Positions 7,559 to 11,216 of a stretch of DNA of 53,442 nt are shown in pieces. The first letter of the stretch is position 1; the number at the start of each line of letters is the position of its first letter. Location of the stretch: positions 1 through 53,442 of the forward strand of contig JAUIGU010000027.1 in NCBI GenBank assembly GCA_030432595.1, read 5' to 3'. Position numbers and translations under genes: made by a program. The DNA is from Phycisphaerae bacterium (GTDB taxonomy: Bacteria; Planctomycetota; Phycisphaerae; Phycisphaerales; Phycisphaeraceae). The notes beneath the pieces were generated by a model, which was given only the letters and a program-made list of their open reading frames with translations, was not told the DNA's origin and ran no database searches.

Positions 7559-8154
7559 CGACGGCGTCCAACCAGCAGACTCTACCGGGCGGCATGACCA
7601 CCCGACGTGCGAGCGTCACGCGGTAAGAGAGGATGCGGTGGGGTGACCGCCGATCACGATCGGCAACCGCGGTGAACGTTGCGCAAGCAACACGCGAAGA
7701 GGCAATTAAAAGAGCACGGGCCACCGCAGGGGATACGGCGACCCGCACTCGATCAGGGGCAGAAGGGATTGACGCTCAGACCCCCGGCGGGCCGGGGTGG
7801 TTTCTTTCCTAATGTTCAGGCGGCGGAGTCGGCCGACCCGCCCCTCCGCGGGCCGAACCGACATCGAAGCCGCCTGTTCGTCGCTGCTCTTTTCCCATTC
7901 CGGCCTGGGCCGGGGTATCCGGGCGACGCTGGGGAAAAGATGCCACGGCCCGAGCACCGGGCGACCGAAATGACGTCGATTTTTCATTGTTCCCGTTTTT
8001 GCAATGCTTTAGCGAAACAATCGTGGTGTTTCGCCGGTCGGCCGGTTGTGCCGACTGTTGCCCTGGAACCACAGCCCGGTGGGGTGGTTCGGCCGCGTTT
8101 CCCGGCGTTTTCGGGGCGTAAGATGGTGCAACCCTCGAAATGAAAGGCCGGACC
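7559..8154. other. Intergenic region between divergent gdpD-like and lpoB-like genes
   Basis: About 600 bases with no credible ORF. It holds a perfect 16-bp palindrome GCCGATCACGATCGGC at 7649-7664, near the GDPD gene. A GC hairpin at about 7782-7798 (ccccggcgggccgggg) is followed by tggtttcttt and could stop plus-strand transcription. TAAGAT at 8119-8124 is a possible -10 for the lipoprotein operon. I looked for RNase P, tmRNA, 6S and SRP RNA signatures and saw none. Confidence 0.5.
7649..7664. promoter_or_regulatory. 16-bp palindrome upstream of the GDPD gene
   Basis: GCCGATCACGATCGGC is a perfect inverted repeat with 7-bp arms and 2-bp centre. It is 91 bp upstream of the GDPD start and about 490 bp from the divergent lipoprotein operon. 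Its symmetry suits a repressor-type operator; no regulator is linked and function is inferred. Confidence 0.35.
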
Positions 8155-8781
8155 ATGCCCCAGTTCCCCCAGACCCGCTTGCTTCACGCGTTCCGCCCCA
8201 CCGCCGCCCCGGCCCTGATCGCTCTGCTGCTGGTCGTTTCAGCAGGCTGCGATTCGACGCAGCGTGGGCGGATCGATGTCTACGAAACCACCGAGGCAGA
8301 GACGTACTCCGACCGGGTGTTGCCGGTGGCGCTGACGGAGTTCTCCGACCAGGTGCCGCAGGCCCTCATGGCGGACCTGGCGATGCTGCCCGAGTTCAGC
8401 GGCGGCACGCCCAAGACCATCCTGCTGGGCGACCTGGACAACCAGACGCAGATCGTGCCTACGACCGACTTCGAAATGATGGCCCAGCGGATCCGCAACC
8501 AGCTCATCAACTCGCGCGTCGCGCGGGACCGGATGCGCTTCGTCGAGCGGCGGAAGCGCATCGAGCGCCTGGCCGACCGCGAACGCGTGGTCACCGACAC
8601 CGAGACCGGCACGTTCGACACCGGCGACTACGACGCGCAGGATTCGTACTGGCTGCTGGGCGACTTCTACCGGGTCAACCGCAAGAACGTGAACCAGTAC
8701 TACATGCAGTTCCAGCTCGTCCACGCGGCGACCAACGAGATCGTCTTCAGCGACCGCTACGACGTGAAGCAGGTGAACTGA
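8155..8781 (+). CDS. LpoB-like outer membrane lipoprotein (copy 1)
   Basis: Lipoprotein of 208 aa with signal peptide and lipobox VSAGC (C32). The body resembles the LpoB family, whose E. coli member activates the peptidoglycan synthase PBP1b from the outer membrane: KTILLGDLDNQTQ, then MAQRIRNQLINS, then a C-terminal strand pair (YYMQFQLVHAATNEIVFSDRYDVK). ATG 8155 is preferred over 8140 because AAAGG at 8143-8147 gives a 7-nt spacing. It heads a four-gene operon with a second LpoB-like gene, a COG3014-like gene and a YcfL-like gene, the same families that cluster with lpoB in gammaproteobacteria. Function in a planctomycete is inferred. Confidence 0.78.
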   Translation: MPQFPQTRLLHAFRPTAAPALIALLLVVSAGCDSTQRGRIDVYETTEAETYSDRVLPVALTEFSDQVPQALMADLAMLPEFSGGTPKTILLGDLDNQTQIVPTTDFEMMAQRIRNQLINSRVARDRMRFVERRKRIERLADRERVVTDTETGTFDTGDYDAQDSYWLLGDFYRVNRKNVNQYYMQFQLVHAATNEIVFSDRYDVKQVN

Positions 8782-8783
8782 GC

Positions 8784-9404
8784 GTGGGGGTTGTTCAAAG
8801 AGTTTTGGGTTTGGGGACGGGTCGCTTAAGCAACCAGTCCAGCGGGGGTGCGTTGGTACTGCTACTGCTGTTGTGTTTGGTCGTGGGGTGCGCGTCGACA
8901 CCGCGGACGACGCGGATGGACGTGTCGGACTTCGACGCGATGGCGGCGGCGATGGCGCAGTCGCTGGCGGGCAGCGAGGCGCTGGCGGAGCGTGACCCGG
9001 ACAGCGTGCCGTGGGTCATCACGGTGGACAAGGTGACGAACCTGACCAGCGACGTGATGACGCAGGCGGAGCAGTGGGCGGTGATGCAGCGGATCGCGGG
9101 GGCGTTGCCGGTGCGGGCGTTGCGCGACACGAAGAACGTGAGTCTGGTGCTGCCGCGCGGCCGTTCCGATTCGGTGATCGCGGACGGCGACCACGAGCTT
9201 CCGGGGGCGATGCGGTGGACGCCGACGCACGTGCTGCACGCGACGTTCATGTCGCTGACCCGGGCGGAAGAGGGCGAAGACGCGAAGCGCCGCGTCGAGG
9301 CGTATTACTGCGAGTTCGAGCTGCTTCACGTGGCCGGCGGCGAGCCGATGTGGACCGACCGGTTCGAATACAAACGCGAAGCCCGCGGAGCGATCTGGGA
9401 TTGA
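8784..9404 (+). CDS. LpoB-like lipoprotein (copy 2)
   Basis: Paralogue of the preceding gene (206 aa from GTG 8784). It has a leucine-rich signal peptide ending in lipobox VVGC (C36) and a body with the same plan: VPWVITVDKVTNLTSD, AVMQRIAGAL, and a C-terminal CEFELLHVAGGEPMWTDRFEYK. It starts 2 nt after the upstream stop. The GTG is the first plausible start and has only a weak AGG 11 nt upstream, so the exact start is uncertain. The first codons include a gttttgggtttgggg stretch resembling the word arrays elsewhere. The next gene begins directly after its stop codon. Confidence 0.72.
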   Translation: MGVVQRVLGLGTGRLSNQSSGGALVLLLLLCLVVGCASTPRTTRMDVSDFDAMAAAMAQSLAGSEALAERDPDSVPWVITVDKVTNLTSDVMTQAEQWAVMQRIAGALPVRALRDTKNVSLVLPRGRSDSVIADGDHELPGAMRWTPTHVLHATFMSLTRAEEGEDAKRRVEAYYCEFELLHVAGGEPMWTDRFEYKREARGAIWD

Positions 9405-11216
9405 ATGATGAGAACAGTAGAACAGAAAATCAGTAGAGCAGTAGATCGGGCGGGTTTGCGCCTGCTCCATCTACTGCTCTACTGTTCTGCTTCTTTACTG
9501 TTCTGCTCGACCACCCCCGGCTGCAAGAGCGACGGAAAATACAACGCGTACTTCCCCGTCCACGCGCTCTACAGCGCCCAGTACGGCGAGGCCCGGGCGC
9601 ACGTCGCGGCGAACCTGTCCGACGACCGCCGCGACCGGCGCTATGTGCTCGACCGCGCTCGGCTGGGCATGCTCACGCTCGCGGACGGGTACGGGCCCTC
9701 GGCGGTGAACGTGTTCACGGACGTGTATGAGTTGATCCGCACGCAGGGCCTGAACGAAGGCAGGCAGGTCGTCGCCGTCGCGATCAACGAAGACCTCAAG
9801 ATCTGGAAGGGCGAACCGTTCGAGCAGGCGCTCACGCTCGCGTACACGGGCATGGCGCACGCACAGACCGGCTCGTGGGACAACGCCCGGGCCGCCGCCA
9901 ACAACGCGCTGTTCTACCTGCGCGACTTCGGCTACGACGAGAAAACCCGGAACCGGCTCAATCAGCTCGAACTCACCCGTGCCGCGGCGGCGCACGACCG
10001 CAACCCCGACGCAGGCATCGACCTGGACCACGGGTACGTCGTCACGGAATCAAACTTTGCGCTGGGCTACCTCTTGCACGCGTTGGCGTCACAGCAGCTC
10101 GACCGGCCGGACGAAGCGGGCGACTACTTCCGCCGCGCCAAAGAGCTCTCGCCGTGGGCGACGGAGACGATCGAGCGTTTCCAAAGTGGCGACTACAACA
10201 CGGTGCTGATCGTGTCGTACGGGCTGGGCCCGCAGAAGGTCGGGGTGGGCCCGGCCGAGTCGGTGGCGATGTTCTCGCCACGGACGCGCAGCGACGACGC
10301 GGCGCTGGCGGTGCGGGTCGGCGGCGACGGCGACGGCGGATCGTGGCAGCGCACGCACTGGGTCACGGACGTCAACGACATGGCCGACGACCACATGTGG
10401 AACAACCTGGAGGACGTGCGTAAAGCCAAGGCGAACGTCGGCGAGACGCTGATGCTCGCGGGTGCCGGCGCGGGTCTGTACGGCCTGAGCCGGGGCGACG
10501 AGGGCAGCACACGCGACGCGAGCCTGGCCATCGCCGGCGGTCTGCTGCTGGCCGGGGCGGTGCTGCGCGAAGGCGCCCACGCGGACCTGCGGTTCAACGA
10601 CGCGGTGCCGCAGCGGTACTACGCGGTGCCGCTGACCCTCGAAACGTTCAACGAACCGATCACGCTGCAGATCGACGGCCAGCCGAGCAGCCGGGTGGTG
10701 CTGCGCGGGCTGGGCCCGCCCGAATCCGCCGGCGGACGCGCGTCGCTGCGCTACGTGCGCCTGCCCGCCCGGCCTGGCAACATCCCGCTGAACTGGGCGA
10801 CGTCGGAACGTGTGACCGTCGGCAACCCGGTGACCGGGCGCGCGAGTGAGCGCCCGGTGCCGATCCTGTTCGAGGACGGCAACGACGCGCGGCCGCCGAC
10901 GGACGACGCGCTCGACGACTATGTGCACGACCCGCGTCTGGCCGACCTGACCCTGGCCGAGCTGCGCGACCTGTACCGTCAGCGCGGAATCACCTGGACC
11001 ATCGAGGACACGGGCGGCGTCGCCGGGCGACACGTGCTCGAGGGCGGCAGGTCGCTGGTGGCGCCGATGGGCGGCACGGTCGGCTTTTCCCGGTTGTTCT
11101 GCGACCCGTTCCGCGGCGACGGCGTGCAAGTGCCGCGCGTGCCGCTGGTGTCCGAAGATCAGGCGGCTTACCCCGCTACGCTTGAACCATCCCCCGTTGG
11201 AGGTTTGCTCCCATGA
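9405..11216 (+). CDS. COG3014-like TPR lipoprotein
   Basis: Exported protein of 603 aa resembling the COG3014 family found beside lpoB and ycfL in other bacteria; function unknown. A lipobox-like TTPGC puts the lipidated cysteine at C40. TPR-like helical pairs fill about residues 60-260 (VAINEDLKIWKGEPFEQAL, ALAYTGMAHAQTG, ANNALFYLRDFG, GYLLHALASQQ), with a glycine/alanine-rich membrane-like segment near 345-385 and beta-rich C-terminal part. The stop of the upstream gene and this ATG are adjacent; the 3' end overlaps the next gene by 4 nt (ATGA). The odd point is that the signal peptide is encoded by a word palindrome (9410-9507). Confidence 0.75.
   Translation: MMRTVEQKISRAVDRAGLRLLHLLLYCSASLLFCSTTPGCKSDGKYNAYFPVHALYSAQYGEARAHVAANLSDDRRDRRYVLDRARLGMLTLADGYGPSAVNVFTDVYELIRTQGLNEGRQVVAVAINEDLKIWKGEPFEQALTLAYTGMAHAQTGSWDNARAAANNALFYLRDFGYDEKTRNRLNQLELTRAAAAHDRNPDAGIDLDHGYVVTESNFALGYLLHALASQQLDRPDEAGDYFRRAKELSPWATETIERFQSGDYNTVLIVSYGLGPQKVGVGPAESVAMFSPRTRSDDAALAVRVGGDGDGGSWQRTHWVTDVNDMADDHMWNNLEDVRKAKANVGETLMLAGAGAGLYGLSRGDEGSTRDASLAIAGGLLLAGAVLREGAHADLRFNDAVPQRYYAVPLTLETFNEPITLQIDGQPSSRVVLRGLGPPESAGGRASLRYVRLPARPGNIPLNWATSERVTVGNPVTGRASERPVPILFEDGNDARPPTDDALDDYVHDPRLADLTLAELRDLYRQRGITWTIEDTGGVAGRHVLEGGRSLVAPMGGTVGFSRLFCDPFRGDGVQVPRVPLVSEDQAAYPATLEPSPVGGLLP
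9410..9507. repeat. Word palindrome inside a coding sequence
   Basis: Left arm 9410-9446 consists of agaacagtag, aacag, cagtagagcagtag words. Right arm 9469-9507 is the complementary series (ctactgctctactgttctg, ctttactgttctgct). The reverse complement of the right arm matches the left almost throughout, including a shared agtagagcagtagat end. The loop is about 22 nt. The palindrome covers codons 2-35 of the COG3014-like gene and so supplies its signal peptide. Confidence 0.85.

Follow-up and report, generated by a model that had tools for sequence, protein, structure and literature searches.

The start of a putative lipoprotein gene in a Phycisphaerae genome coincides with a strong DNA palindrome made of short repeated words, and the question that this locus raises is whether a repeat has become the export signal of a protein. 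The gene lies on contig JAUIGU010000027.1 of a 4.39-Mb genome (G000), and the whole stretch of DNA that was analysed, 53,442 nt long, is referred to below as the window.

The window palindrome and the start of the lipoprotein gene

The inverted repeat consists of a left, purine-rich arm (positions 9411-9454, forward strand) and a right, pyrimidine-rich arm (9461-9504), each 44 nt long and 80% complementary to the other, which are separated by a 6-nt spacer (9455-9460). Its inverted-repeat score of 21.5 was not reached by any of 1000 dinucleotide shuffles (mean 6.4, maximum 11.5), and the predicted RNA fold of -69.7 kcal/mol (z -8.9) was equalled by none of 200. The arms are built of 8-nt CAGNARAN words that run head to tail on the left (CAGTAGAA CAGAAAAT CAGTAGAG CAGTAGAT at 9415-9446) and as reverse complements on the right (9469-9508). 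The initial annotation had described the palindrome in terms of the heptamer ACAGTAG; the inverted repeat was confirmed, but the heptamer as its unit was abandoned in favor of the octamer, since ACAGTAG is not clearly enriched (3 occurrences in the window against 1.04 expected, a number reached in 7 of 100 shuffles). According to the word-run finder, this is the sole element of its kind in the window. Other 150-nt tiles of the window give inverted-repeat scores of up to 18, and an Rfam search of positions 9000-10000 returned sub-threshold matches only (seven microRNA-like and one riboswitch), which we took as chance.

The palindrome falls within the first codons of an ORF of 603 aa (9405-11216), which starts with ATG 9405 (or ATG 9408) straight after the TGA of the gene upstream. 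That gene is LpoB-like below the cut-off (8850-9404, where 8850 is the start of the searched translation and 9402-9404 the stop) and follows an LpoB-family gene identified by its PF13036 profile match (8140-8781); downstream, a DUF1425 gene (PF07233, 11213-11635) overlaps the ORF by 4 nt. All of these genes are on the forward strand, and the neighbours are consistent with a lipoprotein operon. The ORF itself has no Pfam or NCBIfam match, and its earlier label, COG3014-like, was thus not confirmed.

Only three in-frame ATG, GTG or TTG codons precede the conserved body of the protein, namely ATG 9405, ATG 9408 and TTG 9456 (9456-9458), the last of which lies in the spacer, at the loop of the hairpin. 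When the sequence was read from 9459 onwards, no further codon of these three types was found in frame before codon 81 (CTG and rarer starts are outside this count), where a GTG falls within the region common to the homologues. Since all three starts precede the right arm, this arm encodes the hydrophobic core LLHLLLYCSASLLFC whichever of them is used. The reading frame, the peptide MMRTVEQKISRAVDRAGLRLLHLLLYCSASLLFCSTTPGC, its place ahead of the Cys codon and the coding of the core by the right arm are as initially described. A start downstream of the palindrome had been named as an observation that would count against this reading; from the right arm up to the conserved part of the protein, no in-frame ATG, GTG or TTG codon was seen.

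The role of the left arm depends on the start. Only with ATG 9405 or ATG 9408 as the start would it encode the basic n-region, and the position of ATG 9405 directly after the upstream TGA would suit reinitiation. Alternatively, the left arm may be leader RNA, with translation starting at TTG 9456 in the hairpin loop, which is the start preferred by a crude codon-usage gene caller. With each of the three starts, Arg 19 is followed by the core LLHLLLYCSASLLFC, giving the basic-then-hydrophobic order of a signal peptide as judged by eye and by hydropathy.

The core leads into Thr-Pro-Gly-Cys (9513-9524), with its Cys codon at 9522-9524. A canonical lipobox reads [LVI][ASTVI][GAS]C, and TPGC fails both this strict form and a PS00013-like pattern; the lipobox reported earlier is thus present, but weak. 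The PS00013-like rule is passed by 57 of 73 homologue tails, the strict one by 20 of 73, and 16 of 73 fail the PS00013-like rule. These tails were copied by hand from 79, excluding those with no clear Cys and one identical duplicate.

Homologous junctions and the CAGNARAN family

We fetched 80 homologue loci, mostly titled Phycisphaerae, Phycisphaerales or Planctomycetota MAGs, and none of them contained a three-word run of CAGNARAN words anywhere or a two-word run near the junction with the upstream gene. A hydrophobic stretch (mean hydropathy >1) precedes a lipobox-like Cys in 70 of the 79 N-termini tabulated (L207 was excluded) by a home-made rule, and several of the remaining nine show one by eye. 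The signal peptides of the homologues are not conserved and are unrelated in sequence, so that the signal shared at the protein level by orthologues, which had been proposed as evidence against exaptation, was looked for and not seen.

The same-genus orthologue (G001; locus L155, the same as L010, JANQPR010000246.1 of Phycisphaera sp. isolate IP29b_bin.17) is 66-67% identical and has kept both the end of the upstream gene, FEYKREARGHIWD followed by the stop, and the lipoprotein body. It has no words at the junction, and its signal DNA is unrelated. The upstream stop and the Cys codon lie 117 nt apart in the window and 113 nt apart in this orthologue; the median across homologues is 113 nt (range 53-179, n=23, from 40 loci tried, 16 of which had no recognisable upstream end and one no Cys tag). 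An insertion of about 100 nt would lengthen an average junction, and hence the element either replaced earlier codons or formed in place. The initial annotation had offered exaptation of the repeat or its insertion into a pre-existing signal. These lengths disfavor insertion and make replacement of the old signal appear more likely; the argument is one of lengths because no close relatives that differ in the presence of the element at this site were found, the sister being 66-67% identical and the assemblies mostly metagenomic.

We also considered the junction as a hotspot for strong palindromes and found at most a weak one, with a score of at least 14 in 3 of 77 homologue junctions (L166, L193 and L207 excluded) compared to 19 of 4115 control windows; L156 and L158, which account for two of these three junctions, are related. 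No hairpin is common to the homologues at the junction. Individual orthologues do carry other repeats there. A perfect 24-bp inverted repeat of the AAAAAGGGGACTGTCCCC type encodes the stretch preceding the hydrophobic core in another MAG (L195, 3914-3963), in L205 the first part of the signal core is encoded by another palindrome (AAACGGTGTCTGACACCGTTT, near 499-530), and a GTTTAGCGG...CCGCTAAAC palindrome stands before the core in L156, L157 and L158 (upstream of the match). FSGRSKIAAW, a peptide of this last palindrome in L156, is seen again where a G015 gene unrelated to these orthologues has its signal (L276). Two further orthologues have word repeats within or next to their N-terminal codons, AAATCCG at 1408-1435 of L011 and ATGGCAG just before 4001 in L160.

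The window copy is one of many. The pattern CAGNARANCAGNARANCAG, allowing at most one mismatch, gave 81 matches in G000 (45 forward and 36 reverse) and none for the reversed control, and these form 17 dispersed loci, the window copy included; the word-run finder returned no run in 572,790 reversed bases. Both arms surround a non-word core at 14 of the 17 loci, and one arm is present at three (L090, L099 and L101). Exact matches were found in 17 of 51 family genomes searched. Two genomes are rich, G024 (82 matches) and G057 (32), where the words are mostly spelled CAGGAAAN, and the same-genus G001 has 2. We examined the elements of three genomes, taking all 17 from G000 and all those marked by an exact match in G024 (39) and G057 (15), 71 in all.

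The positions of these elements relative to genes follow a pattern. Among those with two called flanks, 53 of 62 sit between co-directional genes, as called by the crude codon-usage gene caller, and the distance to the nearer flanking gene is usually about 20 nt or less. Overlap with the 3' end of a gene by more than 6 nt, or a position in its last codons, was seen for 17 of the 71 elements, and two (the window copy and L261) encode a predicted signal peptide; L243 is ambiguous and L236 lies mid-gene. The elements are inverted repeats, occur in many dispersed copies and are too short for a transposase gene, as MITEs are, and may themselves have been mobile. Word arms often provide the final codons of the abutting gene, for example at L093, L099, L150 and L269. 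At the purM and murD junctions, the upstream genes differ between G000 and G001.

The other signal-encoding element, L261, belongs to another genus (G057, contig C47). Its right arm, made of TTTCCTGN words, begins 30 nt after the ATG and encodes most of MSARAVLLLFISCFPVFLLFCFSAEA, which is followed by QLLQADW, and the mature start aligns with that of homologues. From that ATG to the mature region, no further ATG, GTG or TTG was read; the left arm is present, broken by one extra base. The protein matches no Pfam or NCBIfam family. Words near the start were found in none of 13 homologues (L271-L283, the best 13 of 24 other matches). A signal peptide is clear by eye in 12 of these, with an A-Q site in nine, G-Q in two and another in L278; the N-terminus of L282 is hydrophobic but lacks a site of this kind. 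L261 thus seems, from its DNA, to be an independent second case of a predicted signal encoded by the repeat.

The length of the word offers a reason for this coding capacity. Since 8 is not a multiple of 3, a run of words returns to the same phase only after 24 nt, having passed through all of them, and every frame spells the same octapeptide, which is QESRKAGK, basic and hydrophilic, for the purine arm and FPAFLLSC or STALLLYC, hydrophobic, for the pyrimidine arm. We read 90 arms of 53 loci in 270 frames, with control windows taken from the same loci. The pyrimidine arm was open with a mean hydropathy >1 in 222 of 270 frames, compared to 1127 of 20000 control windows (5.6%), and its reading had a mean hydropathy of 1.87; the purine reading had a mean hydropathy of -2.32 and a net charge of +1.83. 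Purine frames were open in 99 of 105 cases in G024, in 71 of 72 in G057 and in 22 of 93 in G000, few in the last because CAGTAGA contains TAG, and the open purine arm of the window may be luck or irrelevant. A palindrome of 8-nt words, purine then pyrimidine, would suffice in any frame because signal peptides need little beyond charge followed by hydrophobicity.

Word arms around PF05635 genes

Unlike the window copy, the family member on contig C63 of G000 carries an ORF: the core between its CAGNARAN arms holds a gene for a PF05635/TIGR02436 four-helix-bundle protein (23S rRNA intervening-sequence protein). A PF05635 gene also lies between such arms in G024 (contig C149), and among 61 genomes from this order, 41 contained PF05635 matches, 115 in total. 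Inverted arms (score at least 14, within 180 nt on both sides) flank 38 of 45 PF05635 loci, compared to 38 of 1980 swapped pairs. High scorers are over-represented in this sample, which takes the best locus of most genomes together with every locus of G000 (ten) and of G057 (six) (tested loci L103 and L105-L150; the duplicates L110, L116 and L120, equal to L149, L143 and L135, were dropped before counting, and L151-L154, second fetches of counted loci, were excluded). The 38 arm pairs consist of tandem words with a best period of 7 in 27 and of 8 in 8; the words are mostly spelled differently at each locus, and purines make up more than half of the left arm in 34 of 38. At the other seven loci (L093, L114, L129, L130, L131, L134 and L147), no strong inverted arms were found within 180 nt; in two of them, L093 and L147, a word palindrome stands immediately upstream, and in L130 there are words on the downstream side.

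Two of the PF05635 elements could be compared with relatives. The gap between the gene for a sigma-54-type regulator and ispF measures about 443 nt in G000, with the element, versus 15 nt in G001. That between fliW and csrA measures 498 nt in G000 (L315, contig C35), with the element inside, versus 135 nt in G001, and 56-301 nt across 18 other loci (all relatives, L316-L334, compared by gap length). Judged by these gaps, both elements are insertions relative to the relatives; their words are not CAGNARAN. At the ispF junction (contig C70; L140, 944-1855, compared with L313 of G001), the PF05635 element is in frame with ispF, and a single 303-aa ORF matches TIGR02436 and then ispF.

The window element has the inverted arms of tandem words that mark this class, but a 6-nt spacer in place of the ORF. 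Because it shares CAGNARAN words with the C63 copy, we infer that it may be an ORF-less relative of the PF05635 elements. A comparable arrangement is known from the 23S rRNA IVS of Coxiella, in which, in the portion of the source available, terminal inverted repeats form a stem around an S23 (PF05635-type) ORF and mobility was proposed (PMC4990558). The elements described here likewise hold such an ORF within terminal inverted repeats, but they lie outside rRNA, with arms of tandem 7-8-nt words that vary by locus, and the window core is ORF-less. Excerpts of two further papers describe a resemblance of PF05635 to Avd of diversity-generating retroelements (PMC10053308) and its presence in cas loci (PMC3936711). 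A literature search on word arms around PF05635 genes gave no such paper among the matches listed. We propose, tentatively and with more doubt than conviction, that PF05635 genes and their tandem 7-8-nt word arms might form a widespread, undescribed class of mobile elements in this order, whose ORF-less derivatives, with a frame-independent signal code, would repeatedly have replaced export signals.

Origin of the signal and comparison with known repeats

We consider it likely that the repeat took over the signal codons of the lipoprotein gene, and that its pyrimidine arm now encodes the core of the predicted export signal. A dispersed CAGNARAN palindrome would have come to sit at the tight junction of two operon genes, displacing the signal-peptide codons of the downstream lipoprotein. 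The pyrimidine arm would now be the hydrophobic core, ahead of a degenerate and probably ancestral Cys motif, and the polarity of the element, 5' purine and 3' pyrimidine, would be translated as 'basic then hydrophobic', which is the grammar of signal peptides. The claim that the repeat serves as an export signal gains from the core encoded by the right arm, from the unrelated signals of homologues and from the second case; the weak lipobox counts against it, as do the small share of signal-encoding copies (2 of 71), the scarcity of open purine frames in G000, the false extensions that word arms near starts can produce and the at most weak enrichment of palindromes at homologous junctions.

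Another reading is that the hairpin was kept for RNA reasons, such as RNase III-like processing or translational coupling with a start at TTG 9456, and that signal-like coding is a tolerated by-product. The very stable fold (z -8.9) with TTG at its loop, the location of 53 of 62 elements between co-directional genes in three genomes and the gene caller's choice of 9456 as the best start would all fit, but homologues manage without a common hairpin at the junction and the arm must still be translated to give the gene its N-terminus, a reading of the right arm that is compatible with the takeover of the signal. We regard the RNA explanation as doubtful. That the words formed in place, through templated mutation at the site or amplification of words within existing signal codons, appears unlikely: the junction shows no net length gain over homologues, and both the words and the cores differ from copy to copy, as expected from such a process, yet such words are present at 16 further G000 loci (13 with both arms) and in other genera, and two PF05635 elements with word arms of other spellings have filled and unfilled sites.

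It is improbable that the signal is an annotation mirage, with the true start elsewhere and a protein that is not exported. Word arms near starts can yield spurious hydrophobic extensions, as they probably do at murD in L094, and at T2SSF in L243 an ATG comes after the arm; at the window, however, no ATG, GTG or TTG follows the arm before codon 81, which is inside the conserved region, and homologues have signals at the same place. An assembly artefact or a chance palindrome is hardly tenable. The source is probably a metagenome assembly of 73 contigs, but none of the 1000 shuffles reached the score of the palindrome, and the recurrence of the element in many copies across three genomes already refutes an artefact. 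Takeover of the signal codons by the repeat is the reading that we retain.

A signal peptide made from a repeat is already known in kind. In Yersinia, as described in the sections available of two papers, an RU-2/YPAL repeat in YPO1552 supplies aa 1-30 of the predicted signal peptide of a putative exported protein (PMC2759123 of 2007, PMC2229807). There, too, a small palindromic repeat, mobile in Yersinia, forms part of a predicted signal peptide, and export is a prediction in that case as it is read from sequence alone in ours. The Yersinia fusion was proposed to create a new exported protein, whereas here the gene is conserved and its homologues have repeat-free or other signals; the window repeat is also of the tandem-word type, with an apparent frame-independent reason for its coding. 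Palindromic elements of Rickettsia, in the same part of PMC2229807, measure 105-146 bp and are fused in-frame within conserved genes and translated. The window copy and L261 resemble them, at the sequence level, as in-frame repeats inside conserved genes; the present elements differ in having word arms, in being mostly intergenic and in touching the 3' ends of genes far oftener than the 5' ends.

Two other systems are more distant. The TAACTGA heptamers of Beggiatoaceae are short tandem words near start codons, some of them inside ORFs, and a regulatory role was proposed for them (PMC4679880); they are direct repeats, one of them inverted, and the terms 'four helix' and 'intervening' are absent from the text of that paper as far as it was available. 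In Schistosoma japonicum, repeats mediate the duplication of a dispersed gene family with a signal sequence (PMC3434034), which likewise ties repeats to the spread of a signal sequence. This organism is a eukaryote, and the available part of the report does not say that its repeats encode the signal.

The element class behind the window case may be the larger discovery, and it hints that the S23/IVP proteins, which are poorly understood, may generally be embedded in an architecture of this kind. The window case itself suggests concretely how selfish repeats may turn into working protein parts, and with it the question of how new export signals arise becomes testable. It also advises annotators to be cautious about spurious hydrophobic N-termini. 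L094 (1495-3057, reverse strand) shows such a trap: when murD is read from an ATG that lies within the core of a word element, its product gains a hydrophobic N-terminal extension that looks spurious.
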